A stretch of 22,941 nt of DNA from a virus. The notes beneath the pieces were generated by a model, which saw only the letters and a program-made list of their open reading frames with translations, did not search any database and was not told the origin of the DNA. The DNA lies in the IMG/VR virus record IMGVR_UViG_3300020450_000097, positions 1 through 22,941 of that record. One strand, written 5' to 3'. The translations under genes and the position numbers were made by a program. Positions 5,103-15,775 of this stretch are shown piece after piece. Position 1 is the stretch's first letter, and the number at the start of each line of letters is the position of its first letter.

Positions 5103-5690
5103 TTAACCTAAGAAATCTTTGAATCTACTAGTGAATGAAAGGATAAGTCCCAAGAAACCACCTTGTTTTGAATCTGTTTGAGTTCCAGATGAAAGTTCTA
5201 CACCACCAGATTGATCTACAAAGTTACCACCCATACTTAATGTTTTCTTTCCTAAAACATTTGTAAGAGCACCGTCAAGGTCAATGATGGGAGCCTTAGT
5301 ATAGATGTGTTTAGTTGCTTTGATGGTCATTTCACCATCAGGATCATTGAGAGCGTGAAGTCTTATATTTCTTGCTCTTATCTCAATGTCTCCATCTTTT
5401 GCTTCAATTAATATGTTACCATTTGGAGCGGAGATTATTTTTGCCATATCTCCTTCATCCACCTTCATTCCTACAGTTTCATAGGATGTTCCATTTGTAA
5501 CTAACTTCTGTAATCCATCTTTATAAAAGGCGATACCTTGAATCTCGTCAGTCATTACTGAGAAATCAGTGTATTTACCTTTCAAATCTCCGTCAGGAAT
5601 TTTTATCCCAGAAGTAATTCTAAAGCCTGGATAGTTTGCATAGTATTCTTTAGTCTTCGGCGTTTGTTTGTCTAAATCTTCTTTACTCAT
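5103..5690 (-). CDS. Probable baseplate spike-associated protein, gp5/VgrG beta-helix-like
   Basis: This 195-residue protein has a central run (about residues 85-150) of alternating hydrophobic and polar residues (GNILIEAKDGDIEIRARNIR, then MTIKATKHIYTKAPIID). It resembles the triple-stranded beta-helix of T4 gp5 C and VgrG spike proteins. The C-terminus is a short hydrophobic segment (GGFLGLILSF) followed by a basic tail. It begins right after the gp5 stop codon (TAAATG). Because the neighbouring gp5 lacks an evident beta-helix, this protein may supply the spike or tip as a separate chain. That is inference. It could also be another structural protein with a short beta-solenoid. Confidence 0.6.
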   Translation of the reverse strand: MSKEDLDKQTPKTKEYYANYPGFRITSGIKIPDGDLKGKYTDFSVMTDEIQGIAFYKDGLQKLVTNGTSYETVGMKVDEGDMAKIISAPNGNILIEAKDGDIEIRARNIRLHALNDPDGEMTIKATKHIYTKAPIIDLDGALTNVLGKKTLSMGGNFVDQSGGVELSSGTQTDSKQGGFLGLILSFTSRFKDFLG

Positions 5691-8600
5691 TTAGTATCCT
5701 CCTCCGTAACCGCCGCCTCCGCCGCCACCAGAGGGAGGTGTGGGTGGAGGGCTAGGTGGCGCTGGTGGTGCTGGTGGTGGTGTTGGTGGTTGTTGTTGTT
5801 GCGGCTGTTGTTGCTGTGGCTGTTGTGTTTCTTGTGGCGGTGTATATTGTTGTGTGGTGTCACTTGTAGTAGTTGAACTGGTATCACTTGTAGTGGTTTC
5901 ACTTGTGGTGGTGGAAGCAGAAGCATCGGCCTGTGGTGATTGTTGATCGGTTGTTCTAGGTTGAGTATAAACCATCGGTGCTGACTGTCCTAGACTCTCT
6001 TCTCTCGTGTTATATATTACAGCATGAGGTTCATTTTTGTGAACCTTTCCTACCATTTTAACACCTCTATCAGGGTGAAGATGGAAATCTCCGTAGTAAG
6101 GATTACCATTGACCCACCCAATTTGTGTCTTACCTAAACCATAAACACAATCTATAACCTTAATAAAGAGACTTCCTCCAGCTCTAGCACCATCTGGTGT
6201 AGGTATTCCTGACCTACCACCACCAAATCCACCATCAATATTTGGAGCAGTTCCACTATCAGAAACAAAGTCAGGACTGTAAGACATAACAGGAAGTAAC
6301 TCTGCTCCTATTCCAGATTTTGTATTTATTGTGACCTCTGGTATGATTTTATGTTTATCTTGACAATTTATATTATTGATTCCAGCAATAGATCCAGCTG
6401 GAGTTAGAACTAAATCGAATGTACATGCACCAACTTGTCCACTATCTCCTGACGTATATCCTATGCCAGGCCTGTATGGAACCAAAGTGGTAACAATACC
6501 AACTGCTTCACTTCCTATTCCAGAAACTCCCTTAGTAGTAAAGTTGTAAGTGTCTGTCCTTCCTATACCAGCGAACTGATTATCATTCAAATCTAAGAAT
6601 GATCCCTCTGACATTGTAATATAGTATTCAGTGCTGCCTCTTAGATCCTGTTTCGGATCTATTCTAATAATTCTGTCTGATAAAAATTCTATTCTATCAC
6701 TCTTTATGTCAATTCTTTCGTGAATGACATTGGTTAGTGATTCTGTTATGACCACCTCTCCTTTTCCTTTAACAATTGGTTCATTAAAAGTAACCGAAAG
6801 AGATACAGATGTCTGCACACCAACAGCATTATCAGATGGAGTCGTAAATGTTATGAATGGATTTTCTAAATCAGTGTCCTCTGTGACAGGGTATTTTGGA
6901 GGGATTACATTTGTTGATGTACAATATCCAAATCCAGGCGATATCATATAGACATCTACAACTTTACCCTCATCATCTATAATTGCTTTCGCTCTTGCTC
7001 CACCACCATGTCTAGTCTTATCAATAATAGAGATTGTTGGTACGTCAGTGTAATTTCTGCCTGGTTCTATAATCTCTAGTGTTAATATACTTCCATCTAT
7101 TGAGGATACAATAGGAATTAAAACTGCGGTCTTTGTTCCATTTCCGAGAACTTCTACTTTTGGGGGGATACACTCACTCCAAGTGAAGCCTGGCGGAACT
7201 GCCATAGCCAAATCATCTTGAGTCTGAGGATTATTGGTTTTATTATTACAATCAAAGAACTCTACCGCTCCTCCTCCCATCATACTAAGAAGAGAGAATC
7301 TTGCTCTTGCATCATAAACTCCCGAACCAGATTCATTATCACCTGAGAAACCAGATGTATCAGCAAAGTTTTCTAACTTCTTGAGTATTTCTACATTATC
7401 TAATACACTCTCCATATTGGGGGATGGCAATTTAGATTTTCCTCCAGATTGTGTCCAATCATCATACTCCTTACATGATAAGTCAGTGCATGATAGGAAT
7501 GATAATAACATATCAACATAACTGCTTATCTTCCCAAATAAACCAGCGATCTTGCCTAATGACCCAAGTAACCAATCTAATCCGTCTAGCACTGGTTTGA
7601 GCGTTCTATTCACAGCGTCATATGCACTTGCCAAAAGGTTTGCCACTGCCTGTTCAACGGCACAAACTGTTGGATTTATTGCCTTTCCAATCATATCTGT
7701 CAACATATCTTTAATCAAGTCGAACAGATCGTTGAAACCAGTGTCAAATAAACAGAAAATTATGTCCAGAATTTTTTGTACAGCCTTAGAGATGAATGGT
7801 TTCTGTGGTTCTGGGACGATTAGTGCCTGTAGATCTCTAAATTGCTTTGATATAAAATTCATGACCTTTTCTCTAATAAGGTTCATGATCTTCTTCATTG
7901 CAGCACTTATCAACCTAGCTACCTTATTAGTTAATTTCCTAATATCCTTTATTGTATTCTCTGCTACATCAATCCATTCTCCAGCAAACTCAGTCAAAGA
8001 GTTGACTGTGGTTAGAAAACTACCTAGCTCATGTGCTATATCTCCTACAGCATCATCTTTACAACCATTGTTGAGTTTATGCGGGCCTGTTTGTACATTA
8101 CTGAAAGTCTGATCAATTTTTCTTTCTTTGCTTAATCCTTCTCCACCACCCTCTAGTTCGCCTTTTGTTTCGCCGTTTGTTTCCTCACCAACTTTATTTT
8201 CAGCATTTAATTTTGTTTGACTAACATCCTTATCTTTATTTCCAATTTCTTGATTCTTACTTGCAGGCATTGTTGTTTGCCCACCTATTTTTCTACCACT
8301 AACAACTCCAAAAGCATTTGCCTCTGTACCAGAAATACTTTCAACATCTGAATTAGTAGGACCATATCCAGATTTATTGTTTTGTCTTGCTAATGCACCA
8401 AATATAACTGGGTTTTGAGCTTCCTCACCATCCATAAAGAAACCAAAAACAGTTTCTCCTCCAACCATTCTTGAACTCTCGCCATAGCAACCCTGTCCAG
8501 ACCCAGAAGTTGCATCCACCAGAACATGAGCCCAAGGCAAATCTTTCTCGGGCAGTACCTCTGGGTCAAATGGATGATACCCTATTATTCTAACTTTACA

Positions 8601-8732
8601 TCTGTATGCCCATCCAGCATCCGTATCGGTGGCCTCTTGGCGCCAAACATCTGAATCAGCGACTCGGCCAATCCACCATACGAATCCATCTCGTCCAACA
8701 AAGTTGGTCTTTAAAAGGGCACTGTCTAACAT
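5691..8732 (-). CDS. gp5: Baseplate hub protein gp5-like, no lysozyme domain
   Basis: The protein has 1013 residues against 575 in T4 gp5. Residues 1-115 match the gp5/VgrG OB-fold (RVADSDVW, KVRIIGYHP, PWAHV, VFGFFMDGEEAQNPVIFGAL). Residues 225-420 are amphipathic helices. Residues 625-733 look like an SbsA-type Ig-like (Big_5) domain (TPSDNAVGVQTSVSLSVTFN, LRGSTEYYITMSEG). Residues 860-915 hold a histidine-rich module (GDFHLHPDRGVKMVGKVH). Residues 925-1013 are low complexity: T/S, then Q/P, then polyproline and glycine. I see no T4-type lysozyme motif and no gp5 C beta-helix. It starts at a TAATG junction with the 75-residue gene. The role as a central baseplate spike carrier is known for the family. 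The domain additions are what is unusual here. Confidence 0.85.
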   Translation of the reverse strand: MLDSALLKTNFVGRDGFVWWIGRVADSDVWRQEATDTDAGWAYRCKVRIIGYHPFDPEVLPEKDLPWAHVLVDATSGSGQGCYGESSRMVGGETVFGFFMDGEEAQNPVIFGALARQNNKSGYGPTNSDVESISGTEANAFGVVSGRKIGGQTTMPASKNQEIGNKDKDVSQTKLNAENKVGEETNGETKGELEGGGEGLSKERKIDQTFSNVQTGPHKLNNGCKDDAVGDIAHELGSFLTTVNSLTEFAGEWIDVAENTIKDIRKLTNKVARLISAAMKKIMNLIREKVMNFISKQFRDLQALIVPEPQKPFISKAVQKILDIIFCLFDTGFNDLFDLIKDMLTDMIGKAINPTVCAVEQAVANLLASAYDAVNRTLKPVLDGLDWLLGSLGKIAGLFGKISSYVDMLLSFLSCTDLSCKEYDDWTQSGGKSKLPSPNMESVLDNVEILKKLENFADTSGFSGDNESGSGVYDARARFSLLSMMGGGAVEFFDCNNKTNNPQTQDDLAMAVPPGFTWSECIPPKVEVLGNGTKTAVLIPIVSSIDGSILTLEIIEPGRNYTDVPTISIIDKTRHGGGARAKAIIDDEGKVVDVYMISPGFGYCTSTNVIPPKYPVTEDTDLENPFITFTTPSDNAVGVQTSVSLSVTFNEPIVKGKGEVVITESLTNVIHERIDIKSDRIEFLSDRIIRIDPKQDLRGSTEYYITMSEGSFLDLNDNQFAGIGRTDTYNFTTKGVSGIGSEAVGIVTTLVPYRPGIGYTSGDSGQVGACTFDLVLTPAGSIAGINNINCQDKHKIIPEVTINTKSGIGAELLPVMSYSPDFVSDSGTAPNIDGGFGGGRSGIPTPDGARAGGSLFIKVIDCVYGLGKTQIGWVNGNPYYGDFHLHPDRGVKMVGKVHKNEPHAVIYNTREESLGQSAPMVYTQPRTTDQQSPQADASASTTTSETTTSDTSSTTTSDTTQQYTPPQETQQPQQQQPQQQQPPTPPPAPPAPPSPPPTPPSGGGGGGGYGGGY
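5694..5960 (-). repeat. Low-complexity region encoding T/S, Q/P and polyG tail of gp5
   Basis: The last 89 codons of the gp5 gene consist of repeated Thr/Ser units (TTTSETTTSD, SSTTTSD), then Gln/Pro runs (QQPQQQQPQQQQPP), then PPAPPAPPSPPPTPP, then a glycine run with two Y. The DNA is markedly richer in G+C and more repetitive than its surroundings. Such tracts expand and contract by slippage and are likely disordered linkers or adhesive tails. Confidence 0.85.
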
Positions 8733-10356: not shown

Positions 10357-12119
10357 TAACTAGCACCTAAACTTTGAATTGTTAACTGAGAGATCATAGC
10401 ATTTGTATCTACTGGCAAAAACATGATATCCATATCACCTGATCCATTGGGTTTAAATGCTTGTTGCGTTGGCATTTGTGGTTTTTCAACATTAGGAGGT
10501 ATCATTACAACCGAACTTGATCCTTCTCCTCCTCCTGCCATTGGAGTATCGTAATTCATATACTGTTGTGGTATGGTCATACCATCAACGACTGCATCAG
10601 GAGAAACTCCAACAGATGACACATTACTCTTAACATTCTTATCTCTTAACTGAATAACCTTCGCAGCAGCTTCCACCTTAGTTATACTACCATCATTATT
10701 AGCATCTAGACCTTTATTTGCTTCATACCTTTTCTCAAATTTCTTACTAATCGCACCTTCACCAAAGAGAACAAAGTCATCTGGTTTACCTACAGCAGCA
10801 GGGAATAATACACTCATGTAAAGATCAGATATATCTGCACCCTCGTTACCTATACGACCTTCTAAATTAGTCTTAAGATACTTATCAACGTATTCCAACT
10901 GTTGTGCTCTAGACATTTCGGATAGTTCTTCTGTAGTCGTTCCTAAAGACTTAGCAGTATCAGGCATGAACTGTATCAGACCAGTAGCACCAGAACCAGC
11001 CATGTTCTTTGTTGCTGGATCAAATGTTCCACCAGTTTCAAAATCCATCATTGCAAGAAGATCATTCTGTGGAATATTATACTTCTCAGATAACTCAGCT
11101 ATACCTGACATGAAATCTTCATCCCCTGCAACCTCTGGAGGTAGATCATAAGTCATTTCTGATTGAGGTTTTACCTCACCACCCATCATTGTTTGAACTG
11201 GTTGAGCTTTGGTTAAATGAACTGGAATTACTTTTTCGCCTTCTTCATCAACCTCTTTATCAGTAAGTTCTTCTGTAATCTCCTTATCTTTCTTGTTTGC
11301 AAATGGATTTTTTATACCCATCCATTTAGGTCCTAAGTACCCATCATCCTTCTCACTCCCAATAACATCTCTCACAGCGTTTACTGCATCAGAATTATTA
11401 ATAGCAGACGCTACCTCTTTTGTTTTTTCTATAATCTTACCAGTAGTGTCCGTTATAAAGTTCCATAGTCTTTTCATCAAACTAGGCCCTCCTCCAAACA
11501 ACTTACCTTGTTTAGATAAAAAGATAAACTTATCAACAGCCTCTTCAAAGGCATCAACATCTAATCCTTTTTTCTTTCTAGCAATAAATTTTCTCTTGTC
11601 AGGTTTCTCTCCATCTTCACTCACCTCACCTTCTTCACCTTCTTTTGGTTTTAGTTCTTTTGGTTCTTCTTTTTTCTTAGAGTTTATCTCAGATTCTTGT
11701 TTTGATGTTGCCTTCTTACTATCATCTGCACTTTCGTTGACATTTTTTAATCCATCATCTACCTTTTCTCTTTCTGCTTTTAGATCTTTTCTCATGGCAC
11801 GTTCATTGCCACCATACTGTTGATTGAGAACATCCGTTGTTGATGCAGCTTTAGCCTTACTCAACGAACCCCCTAACACTACAGGAAGAAGCAAAGCACT
11901 ACCTAGTAAAGCTTTACTAAGTCCTCCACTCTTCTTACCAGAACTGAAGTTCCTTGCAAACCTTCTTGCTTTCTTTAAGGTGGATCTGCCTGGAATATCA
12001 CTAGTCAAACTTGTACTAGTGGTTCCCATGAAACGAGCAAACCTTGATATGACACTCTCTGCCTTATCTACAGAACCCTGAGCTTTCTTTCTAACTGTTG
12101 CTATTGCTGCTTTACTCAT
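10356..12119 (-). CDS. Tail protein with lytic transglycosylase (SLT) domain
   Basis: This 587-residue protein starts with a basic segment and a hydrophobic stretch (ALLGSALLLPVVLGG, 70-84), followed by a long Lys/Glu-rich region (110-180). Residues 340-440 form a soluble-lytic-transglycosylase-like domain: LSEKYNIPQNDLLAMMDFE with candidate catalytic E361, then GSGATGLIQFMPDTAKSLG. Right after it, LDANNDGSITKVEA (471-484) looks like an EF-hand calcium loop. The C-terminus is G/P/M-rich. The domain cleaves peptidoglycan in known relatives, so this protein probably opens the cell wall during infection, replacing the lysozyme absent from gp5. Its position between the tape-measure candidate and the hub suggests it is carried in the tail tube or hub. 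TAATG junctions link both neighbours. Confidence 0.75.
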   Translation of the reverse strand: MSKAAIATVRKKAQGSVDKAESVISRFARFMGTTSTSLTSDIPGRSTLKKARRFARNFSSGKKSGGLSKALLGSALLLPVVLGGSLSKAKAASTTDVLNQQYGGNERAMRKDLKAEREKVDDGLKNVNESADDSKKATSKQESEINSKKKEEPKELKPKEGEEGEVSEDGEKPDKRKFIARKKKGLDVDAFEEAVDKFIFLSKQGKLFGGGPSLMKRLWNFITDTTGKIIEKTKEVASAINNSDAVNAVRDVIGSEKDDGYLGPKWMGIKNPFANKKDKEITEELTDKEVDEEGEKVIPVHLTKAQPVQTMMGGEVKPQSEMTYDLPPEVAGDEDFMSGIAELSEKYNIPQNDLLAMMDFETGGTFDPATKNMAGSGATGLIQFMPDTAKSLGTTTEELSEMSRAQQLEYVDKYLKTNLEGRIGNEGADISDLYMSVLFPAAVGKPDDFVLFGEGAISKKFEKRYEANKGLDANNDGSITKVEAAAKVIQLRDKNVKSNVSSVGVSPDAVVDGMTIPQQYMNYDTPMAGGGEGSSSVVMIPPNVEKPQMPTQQAFKPNGSGDMDIMFLPVDTNAMISQLTIQSLGAS

Positions 12120-13783
12120 TACATTGCATCCACTATATTAAATACAGATCTAGCATATTGAATGTGAATATTACTAATATCAATCGCTGGAAGAATGGGA
12201 ACTACATTCTTTGTGACGTTTTGTGTTCTCTGTATAGGAGTTTGACCAGCTCTCCTTTTTTTGTCCTGTGCTGGTATAGGAACAGGGAGTATTTCAGTTC
12301 CACCACCGCCTCCACCACCATCACCAGATGGTTTTATAGCTGGTTGAGAAATATCCTTAGATATATCCAACATATTATTAGAGGTATCTGATGATGCTTC
12401 TATAGTAGAATCTTTTTTATCTCCTTCTGTTTTTGATTTCCCTCCATCTGATTCTACACTCTCTTCTTTTTTGCCTCCTAACTTATTTGCAATGAACTTT
12501 CCACCCTTGATTATACCACCAGCCATGATACCCATAGGTGTTATCCCAATAACATCGCCTGCAAGAGATAGAATGTCTTTCTTACCTGGCTCACCCTGAG
12601 ATCCCAAAGATCCTTTATTTCCTTTATCACCAGATTCTCCTTTGTCTCCCTTAAGGAAGTTTTTGATTCCATCTATATGTGACCCACGAGAATCAAAATC
12701 AAACATGTTTCCTGTAGCAAAATCTAAACCACCAGCCAGTAACCTTTTCAATCCTTGTGGTTTTTGCTCCTCATCCTTATTAAAGTCTGGGTTTATTGGA
12801 GTTGGTTCTTTTTCTTTTTCCTCTGTCTCGCCACCTGATGTTGGAGTGATAGTCATTGCGCCACCTTGTTCCATCCTTAATATGGCATTAGGTGACTTAC
12901 CTCCCATAGCATCTTCTTGTGGATCTACTGTGGATTCAGTAGAAGTGTCTTCTGTACCTGTTTCATCCTTTATTTCTTTATCTTTTTCATCTTTTTTGGG
13001 TTTCTCGTCTTTTTGTCTACGTTTTCTCTTCTCTATCATATTAAGTTCACTTTGGAACTTTTCTATAATCTCATTGAATTTATCTCCGTCTATCTTATCC
13101 TCACCTTGTTTTTTCTTTTGAAGTCTTTTCTTTACTGCTCCAAATGCTTTCCCTGCAAGAACACCAGCGCCAAGAAGACCAGCACCCATAGCTATCTTAC
13201 CACCGACTGCAGCAACACCCATCGCTGCTGGCGCTGCCTTGAAAGCCATTGCCAGTAATCCTACCTTTGCAATATTCTTTATCAAACCTTTGAAGAATCC
13301 TCCTCCACCGCCTCTCGGTTTGGCTTTGGCCATCTTAGTGATCAGATCGACAATTATACCCTTAGCTTCACTTAAAAACTGTAAGTTTCTTTGTAGAGAG
13401 CTCTGTAATCCTCCCAAACTAGATGCGAAACTCTGTAATGAATTTAATCCACCATCAAATATCTTTCCTAGAAGAGCGTTAGGATCGAATTGATTTACCT
13501 TTGATGTTACCGACTTAGCAATTTTAGGAACAAGAGATTGAACCTTATTAGTTACAAGTCTACCTACCTTTCTTACACCACCTTGTTTTAAATCTGGTCT
13601 TATAGGTTCTAGACTTTTAGTATTTAAAAGAGAGTTCTTTCCCTGTACCTTACTCTTTAGACCTTTTACTCCACCCTTGACACCTTTTATTAGACCTTCT
13701 TTTTTCCCCTTAAAAAATTTGCCAGGATTAATCTTCTTCGTTGCCTTCCCAACATTTTTTAAGATAGATCCTACTTTAGCCAT
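12119..13783 (-). CDS. Tape-measure-like tail protein (gp29-position), 554 residues
   Basis: The gene follows the gp26/gp51 chaperone pair, the position that nearly always holds the tape measure in tailed phages, and the length is close to T4 gp29 (590). Residues 1-50 are very basic with KG-rich repeats. Residues 110-150 are helical. Residues 173-212 are strongly hydrophobic and Ala/Gly-rich (VGLLAMAFKAAPAAMGVAAV), as in tape-measure membrane segments. Residues 215-280 are densely charged. Residues 379-400 hold seven collagen-like Gly-X-Y triplets. There is a G run at 489-495 and a conserved-looking hydrophobic C-terminus. I see no direct gp29 signature, so the call relies on synteny and composition. 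The start overlaps the gp51-like gene by 8 bases. Confidence 0.55.
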   Translation of the reverse strand: MAKVGSILKNVGKATKKINPGKFFKGKKEGLIKGVKGGVKGLKSKVQGKNSLLNTKSLEPIRPDLKQGGVRKVGRLVTNKVQSLVPKIAKSVTSKVNQFDPNALLGKIFDGGLNSLQSFASSLGGLQSSLQRNLQFLSEAKGIIVDLITKMAKAKPRGGGGGFFKGLIKNIAKVGLLAMAFKAAPAAMGVAAVGGKIAMGAGLLGAGVLAGKAFGAVKKRLQKKKQGEDKIDGDKFNEIIEKFQSELNMIEKRKRRQKDEKPKKDEKDKEIKDETGTEDTSTESTVDPQEDAMGGKSPNAILRMEQGGAMTITPTSGGETEEKEKEPTPINPDFNKDEEQKPQGLKRLLAGGLDFATGNMFDFDSRGSHIDGIKNFLKGDKGESGDKGNKGSLGSQGEPGKKDILSLAGDVIGITPMGIMAGGIIKGGKFIANKLGGKKEESVESDGGKSKTEGDKKDSTIEASSDTSNNMLDISKDISQPAIKPSGDGGGGGGGTEILPVPIPAQDKKRRAGQTPIQRTQNVTKNVVPILPAIDISNIHIQYARSVFNIVDAM

Positions 13784-13967
13784 TTTTGATTTGTGCTTCC
13801 CTAGCTTTTTGTTTTAGGTTTTCTTCTTCAATGTGTAATCTAAGTAAGCCAACATAGATGTCCCTCTCCCAAGGCGGCATATTCTCAATTTCTGCTAGAG
13901 AATATTTATGAAACTGCATGAGAGCAAAATTGATTCGGAAGTATGTCTCAAGATTCATATGAGACAT
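13776..13967 (-). CDS. gp51: gp51-like baseplate hub assembly protein / chaperone downstream frame
   Basis: This 63-residue protein lies directly after gp26, as gene 51 does in T4. It contains LAEIENMPPWERDIYVGLLR and EEENLKQKA, a short helical pattern with the P-P-W-E-R core typical of the small tail-assembly chaperone downstream frames of contractile-tail phages. Its ATG is only 2 bases after the gp26 TAG, has just a poor Shine-Dalgarno (AGG one base before the ATG), and lies inside the 9-bp hairpin of the frameshift signal. The protein is therefore probably made mostly or partly as a C-terminal extension of gp26 by -1 frameshifting. A second ATG (M4, at 13958) is an alternative start. Confidence 0.65.
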   Translation of the reverse strand: MSHMNLETYFRINFALMQFHKYSLAEIENMPPWERDIYVGLLRLHIEEENLKQKAREAQIKNG

Positions 13968-13982
13968 ACCTAGGCGAAAAAA
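13941..13982 (-). promoter_or_regulatory. Programmed -1 ribosomal frameshift signal at the gp26/gp51 junction
   Basis: On the minus strand the last codons of gp26 form the slippery heptamer T TTT TTC (13982-13976) in the correct zero frame. Six bases follow (GCCTAG, holding the gp26 stop), then a perfect 9-bp hairpin: GTATGTCTC (13969-13961), an 11-base loop, GAGACATAC (13949-13941). The hairpin extends by a G-U and an A-U pair. Slipping back one base gives codons TTT TTT CGC CTA GGT ATG, which run without a stop into the gp51 frame and predict a 303-residue fusion (237+3+63). Heptamer, 5-9 base spacer and stem-loop are the standard architecture of -1 frameshift sites, and tail-assembly chaperone genes are the classic phage location (lambda G/GT, P2 E/E'). 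Confidence 0.8.
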
Positions 13983-14722: not shown

Positions 14723-15775
14723 TTAAGCTATGTTATTGTTGACATTAGCTAGATCATTTGTGCCTACTGGTGAGTTTTTAATGAAAAGATTTGTTCTATT
14801 ATCACCATCACTAATCACTTTACCTTGATTAGAGTCAGATGATGGTGGAGCACTACGATCATTACCAATCTCACCTTGATTCGTTACTATAATATACCTG
14901 TCATAAGCAAACTCTACCGTTACTTGTAAAACTGTTGAGTTTTGGTAAGTCAAAGCAACGTCCTGTATGGATGTGGGGAAAGCATTTATAAATTTGTAAC
15001 TAATCGCTTCTGGATCAAACATACCATATTTTTTATTCAACGCAAATCTATCTTTGTCATCTAATATGCGTACAAATGGATTGTCATTGGACTGTTCTTC
15101 TTTTGGAGCAGTCGAGTAATTTTTTAATTGAGATTGAGTTTGACCTACATTTCTTTCAAATTTAGTAATAGTTAGACTTTTCTTGTATTCATTTGGATAT
15201 CTGAATCTATGAAAAGAATTTGAATCTTGTGCTTTTGGGTATCCATCTGGATATCCCTGTGTGAGTCTTACATCCCCTTCGCCAACACCCGCTTTGTAGT
15301 ATAGAGGATTCATGAAATTAATCCACTCTTGAAATAATCTTAAAGAGGTGTAGTCTGATGGAATGTAATAAGTTATAGCAATATCATTATATGCTCTCTG
15401 TGTGGCAAATCTCTCAGTTATACCTTGTCTGCTTCCCTGTTCAGTTAAAGTAGACATGGCTGTTCCAGGCAATATTGCTTCCGTTGCTAATAAAGAATAT
15501 CTACGCATAGCAGCTGGAGTATCCATCACTCCACATGATGCCAACCAATTTTCTAAACTCTCTTCTAAATCTTCTGAAGCATTACTAGTTCCTTTTGCTA
15601 AGTCTAAATTAACAATATAAAAACTAGAGAGGGCAGGAGCACCCAATGCTGTTTGGAAATCTTCTTGAAACGCAAGGTCAAATTGACCTTTCTCAATACC
15701 ATCAGGTGTAGTGCCTGCATTGAATGGTCTTATCTTCTGAAAATAGTTTTTATTCGTCTGTCTACTTACTGGCAT
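14723..15775 (-). CDS. gp54: Baseplate tail-tube initiator gp54
   Basis: This 350-residue protein (T4 gp54: 320) carries the tube-fold C-terminal pattern of the gp19/gp48/gp54 group: YKFINAFPTSIQDVALTYQN, then STVLQVTVEFAYDRYIIV. The N-terminal half includes ENWLASCGVMDTPAAMRRYS and the segment NDIAITYYIPSDYTSLRLFQ followed by EWINFMNPLYY, as in tube-related proteins. gp54 sits on the baseplate over gp48 and starts tube polymerisation. The start at 15775 is only 33 bases from the divergent gp4 ATG, so any promoter of its own must lie inside gp4. It is not adjacent to gp48 on the same strand as it is in T4. Confidence 0.75.
   Translation of the reverse strand: MPVSRQTNKNYFQKIRPFNAGTTPDGIEKGQFDLAFQEDFQTALGAPALSSFYIVNLDLAKGTSNASEDLEESLENWLASCGVMDTPAAMRRYSLLATEAILPGTAMSTLTEQGSRQGITERFATQRAYNDIAITYYIPSDYTSLRLFQEWINFMNPLYYKAGVGEGDVRLTQGYPDGYPKAQDSNSFHRFRYPNEYKKSLTITKFERNVGQTQSQLKNYSTAPKEEQSNDNPFVRILDDKDRFALNKKYGMFDPEAISYKFINAFPTSIQDVALTYQNSTVLQVTVEFAYDRYIIVTNQGEIGNDRSAPPSSDSNQGKVISDGDNRTNLFIKNSPVGTNDLANVNNNIA

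Follow-up and report, generated by a model that had tools for sequence, protein, structure and literature searches.

The window, the 22,941-nt stretch of viral DNA analysed here (positions 1 to 22,941 of IMG/VR record IMGVR_UViG_3300020450_000097), carries a genuine frameshift signal at its gp26/gp51 junction, and gp26 and the gp51 frame very probably encode one tail assembly chaperone that is made in two lengths by -1 frameshifting. Most ribosomes would halt at the gp26 TAG and yield the short form (TAC-N), and a minority would slip into the -1 frame at T TTT TTC and yield a 303-aa long form (TAC-NC) with the gp51 domain; the hairpin 6 nt downstream would aid slippage in the clade of the window. 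If lambda gpG/gpGT is a guide, the gp26 part present in both forms would coat the tape-measure protein, and tail-tube subunits would be recruited by the gp51 extension. We infer the occurrence of slippage, its efficiency and these tape-measure and tube contacts, whereas a chance origin of the junction signal is excluded by its conservation in relatives.

The junction and its genes in the window

At its 3' end gp26 reads GAT TTT TTC GCC TAG, followed by GTATGTCTCATATGAATCTTGAGACATAC, and the junction has the make-up of a -1 site: 1) an X XXY YYZ sequence in phase, 2) a -1 frame that is open into conserved coding sequence, running from 5' of the heptamer to a TAA at 13778-13776, and 3) a structure 6 nt downstream (range 5–9 nt). 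The in-frame heptamer (13982-13976) and the 6-base spacer holding the gp26 stop (13975-13970) agree with the preliminary description, and recomputing the fusion it had proposed gave the same 303 residues, i.e. 237 from gp26 (ending in T-D-F-F) plus 66. Its further claim that the gp51 ATG lies inside the hairpin behind a poor ribosome site also held, since the ATG at 13967-13965 is within the 5' arm of the stem and has an AGG directly 5' of it as its sole SD-like element.

Table 1. Features of the gp26/gp51 junction and of the neighbouring genes
Feature	Position	Strand	Basis
Tail tube gene preceding gp26, position of lambda V	14723..15775	-	phrog_45 E 2.2e-28; PF23849 E 3.8e-8
gp26, short chaperone form (TAC-N), 238 aa	13970..14686	-	PF12322 E 1.2e-73; phrog_150 E 6e-78
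Slippery heptamer T TTT TTC, gp26 frame	13976..13982	-	in-phase; invariant across relatives
6-nt spacer GCCTAG with gp26 stop TAG (13972-13970)	13970..13975	-	sequence
Stem-loop, putative frameshift stimulator, 9-nt loop	13939..13971	-	folding z, synonymous-recoding z, compensatory changes
-1 extension (gp51 / TAC-C part), 66 codons past F-F, then TAA	13776..13976	-	phrog_634 E 6.3e-25
gp51 as separate ORF, own ATG, 63 aa	13776..13967	-	S-SSM7 annotated alike
Next gene, 554 aa, tape-measure position	12119..13783	-	start overlaps gp51 end by 8 nt (ATGGCTAA)

The short and long forms share the N-terminal domain, and the extension is conserved, both as gp26 plus -1 extension and in T4 gp51, a fused equivalent. 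The family matched by the -1 product, phrog_634, is labelled 'baseplate hub assembly catalyst' gp51. Of the 282 positions of the phrog_150 profile, the last part (240-276) corresponds to gp51, and this suggests that the family includes fused proteins.

The tail tube gene lies directly upstream of gp26, and the 554-aa gene downstream had no clear family match in profile searches; in HTVC008M and phiM12 the tape measure is annotated two genes downstream of gp51. The overlap between the end of gp51 and the start of the 554-aa gene (8 nt, 13776-13783) has the commonest spacing at this position (29 of 111 relatives, followed by an 11-nt overlap in 14) and suggests translational coupling. The AlphaFold model of gp26 (pLDDT 87) had as its top two VIA-align matches in the PDB the HK97 tail assembly chaperone (Z 7.9) and YqbN (Z 7.2), both over residues 1-88; since a Z under 8 can reflect a coincidental or common arrangement, these matches are suggestive of a TAC-like fold and fall short of proof. 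A Foldseek search of the model against the PDB gave nothing significant (E 1.6), and the gp26 profile found nothing below E 0.66 among PDB sequences. T4 gp26 and gp51 have been classed as chaperones of hub assembly; gp51 is required there yet absent from the final particle (PMC3004832).

Elsewhere in the window, a 79-aa His/Asn/Gln-rich ORF (5687-5926) lies in another frame inside the Pro/Gly/Gln-rich end of the gene at 5691-8732 and is probably an artefact of composition.

Conservation of the heptamer and the start of gp51

TTTTTTC was found in the gp26 frame, close to the stop, at 81 of 81 loci, i.e. the window and the 80 nearest IMG/VR loci (gp26 identity 57–86%), with the gp51 domain in the -1 frame wherever the contig was long enough. 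A wider set of 146 distinct relatives with a T TTT TT(C/T) junction and a gp51-like domain in the -1 frame was gathered by a script requiring TTTTTT(C/T); because this set was selected on the heptamer, the conservation claim is limited to the loci seen that end in F-F, and every fully sequenced frameshift-type locus of this kind has the heptamer. Distant carriers include the pelagiphage HTVC008M, Melnitz-3, phiM12, Aeh1, Ps15, S13, OLIVR5 and Vibrio K567, and dozens of metagenomic contigs share the junction as well.

If gp26 and gp51 were instead two separate proteins, translation of gp51 would begin at its own ATG, in coupling with the termination of gp26, and the T-rich stretch would do no more than encode a conserved F-F C-terminus. 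We regard this as very improbable, although the window gp51 does have an ATG and public records enter gp26 and gp51 as two genes. The residue before F-F varies, its codon being AGT, TCT, GAT, AAT, GCT, ACT, GGT or CAT, yet the third base is T in all 146 junctions, while T-ending codons account for 32–79% of the codons for those residues in related gp26 coding sequence (TTT for 69% of Phe codons). A natural control is provided by T4, Moon, p000v and IME08, in which gp51 is a separate long gene and gp26 retains F-F spelled TTC TTT, which is not slippery; the idea that F-F alone dictates the heptamer was rejected on these grounds.

Start codons also argue against independent translation. With the first F taken as codon 0, 61 of the 146 junctions have no ATG in the -1 frame until codon 17 or later, past the conserved stretch xxALSHDSLxxYY, and 41 have no start before codon 16 even when ATG, GTG and TTG are all counted. 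Since they have no early start codon, these phages could make the full gp51 domain only as a fusion. The records themselves were discounted as evidence for independent gp51 starts because several entries begin at internal ATGs: in S-RIM8, HTVC008M and Melnitz-3 the gp51 entry does not span the whole open -1 frame and omits the conserved N-terminal stretch (in S-RIM8 and HTVC008M it is cut short at an internal ATG), and in Aeh1 gp51 is unannotated. The suggestion in the preliminary description that frameshifting is the main route to the gp51 domain is thus supported by relatives without a start codon there, as judged from their junction sequences; as the window gp51 has its own ATG, some separate gp51 may also be made.

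The heptamer is missing in Kutterviruses, Vibrio YC/GR28A and Vibrio K397, which keep both parts and lack F-F altogether. The two Vibrio phage groups have a stop-start overlap, TAATG, as would be expected of two separately translated proteins. In the Kutterviruses (L090, 3277-3325; L189 to L203), a gp51-like extension follows gp26 in the -1 frame, with neither an X XXY YYZ heptamer at the junction nor an ATG at the start of the extension, and the junction GATTTTCATTTAATTTTTGAAATTGATTTA hardly changes although protein identity is about 70%. This junction is possibly a non-canonical recoding site.

RNA structure downstream of the heptamer

The stem consists of 10 Watson-Crick pairs (13969-13960 with 13950-13941), or 12 pairs when the outer A-U and G-U are included (13971-13960 with 13950-13939); the perfect hairpin reported in the preliminary description is therefore present, but not at the size given there (9 bp, extendable to 11). 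It has a minimum free energy of -18.4 kcal/mol (z -5.7), and none of 200 dinucleotide shuffles was as stable. Compared with 200 random synonymous recodings, in which the -1 protein is unchanged, the downstream RNA of the window has a z of -3.04, and z was below -1 at 65% of the 146 junctions. Across 119 loci, z averaged -2.07 in a 48-nt segment beginning four codons past the start of the heptamer, -1.51 one codon further and -0.94 two codons further; at seven positions remote from the junction the mean was -0.05 to -0.76. Judged by these recodings, the hairpin region is more stable than its coding demands, which argues that RNA structure has been selected.

Compensatory changes point the same way. 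Within the clade of the window, one stem position is occupied by U-A, G-U, U-G and A-U, another changes from C-G to U-A, and a third from U-A to A-U or C-G. None of 500 shuffles reached the observed share of paired cells (71.6% vs 68.8%), the observed number of cells with two-sided change (29 vs 15.6) or the observed covariation score, but the count of pairs that change on both sides was no higher than in the shuffles (4 vs 4.2).

The RNA structure also bears on the origin of the -1 product by transcriptional rather than ribosomal slippage on the T run. The run is indeed longer in some relatives (8 T in HTVC008M and Melnitz-3), but 130 of the 146 junctions have just six T and then C, in exact codon phase, and the RNA that follows is selected for structure, as expected of a ribosomal signal; we consider transcriptional slippage the least probable of the explanations, with hardly any weight.

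The notion that the exact hairpin is universal was rejected: of the 118 junctions sharing the spacing of the window, only 47 preserve 7 or more of the 9 stem pairs that were scored. Other clades have a different stem, e.g. TAGGCCTCT/AGAGGCCTA in L101, and no stem was found at the junctions of L018 and L156. The hairpin is probably a clade-specific stimulator of slippage and the heptamer the constant part; many relatives have the heptamer but not this exact stem, which would thus be auxiliary at most. Aligning the junction in relatives, as the preliminary description had proposed, thus bore out the heptamer as near-universal and restricted the exact hairpin to a clade, and its view that loss of the hairpin in relatives would refute frameshifting was misleading, the heptamer persisting where that hairpin does not. 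In a more speculative and rather unlikely reading, the hairpin would both stimulate slippage and hide the gp51 start, the gp51 domain being made only as a fusion, and the doses of long chaperone and putative tape measure would be tied by one frameshift because the start of the 554-aa gene overlaps the end of the gp51 frame.

T4 and other tail assembly chaperones

T4 genes 26 and 51 are divergent, and since they lie on opposite strands their fusion by frameshifting is impossible. Unlike the cyanophage gp51, T4 gp51 is no small protein: its residues 1-201 form a second PF12322 domain (3.9e-52), it covers nearly all of the phrog_150 profile (2.6e-84), and its last 40 residues (207-246) are recognised by a profile derived exclusively from -1 extensions (iE 1e-5), which also matches phiP4-3, IME13 and RB43 (6.8e-12 to 9e-8). 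By these profile matches, T4 gp51 combines a complete gp26-like domain with the gp51 extension and is a naturally fused homologue; T4 thus encodes its short form (26) and long form (51) as two genes. The device can therefore not be extended to the T4 26-51 pair itself, to which the preliminary description had referred, T4 gp51 already being the long form.

Two further arrangements were observed. In the Pseudotevenvirus RB43 (L204, 3001-4294), a gp51-like long form is followed on the same strand, with a few-base overlap, by a 185-aa protein that matches the gp26 profile weakly, the arrangement being tandem, not divergent. For Citrobacter phage Moon (L212, 1-398), the annotation places a 'GT-like fusion' at gp27/gp28; judged by PF12322 and the gp51 extension, the chaperone pair would be gp26/gp51, and the gp27/gp28 label is possibly a misannotation.

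As proposed here, lambda G/GT and P2 E/E' comprise a short form and a -1 frameshifted long form, and they have the tail tube gene on one side and the tape-measure position on the other, V preceding G in lambda as the tail tube gene precedes gp26. In contrast, the lambda heptamer, G GGA AAG, differs from the T TTT TTC of the window, and protein homology of the lambda and P2 chaperones to gp26 rests on the weak fold match only. The likeness to lambda drawn in the preliminary description is nevertheless strongly supported, as a -1 frameshift device, by the comparative evidence. Vladimirov et al. (2022) reportedly found frameshifting to be conserved in several T4-like groups, with T4 using genes 26 and 51.

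Atkins (2016) described the G-T frameshift as widely conserved in long-tailed phages 'except T4' (PMC5009743). The preliminary description knew of no account of the device for the T4 26-51 pair, but the gp26/gp51 -1 frameshift of T4-like phages is already known (Vladimirov, Gautam and Davidson, Virology 2022, 566:9-15), as passages of PMC10885494 and PMC12846349 relate, and the chaperones concerned are the same genes as gp26/gp51 of the window. The relevant passages of these two articles also report that some T4-like phages have one short gene and one fused long gene (PMC10885494) and that the TAC-N genes of T4-like phages contain a poly-T slippery sequence (PMC12846349). In another phage family, the Vandenendeviridae/Andersonviridae, a poly-T -1 frameshift on a GTTTTT motif likewise ends TAC-N, and the downstream part has been misannotated as a separate gene, as here (PMC12846349). 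What is added here is the scale of conservation, the start-codon losses and the covarying hairpin.

The finding is thus a well-supported instance of a known device. It assigns a marine T4-like cyanophage firmly to the group of phages with a frameshifted tail chaperone, from which T4 was once thought to be missing; T4 arrived at the same two lengths by way of two genes. In records of cyanophages, pelagiphages and similar phages, in which gp51 is at present often missing (Aeh1) or truncated at an internal ATG (S-RIM8, HTVC008M), gp26/gp51 should be annotated as one ribosomal-slippage gene.
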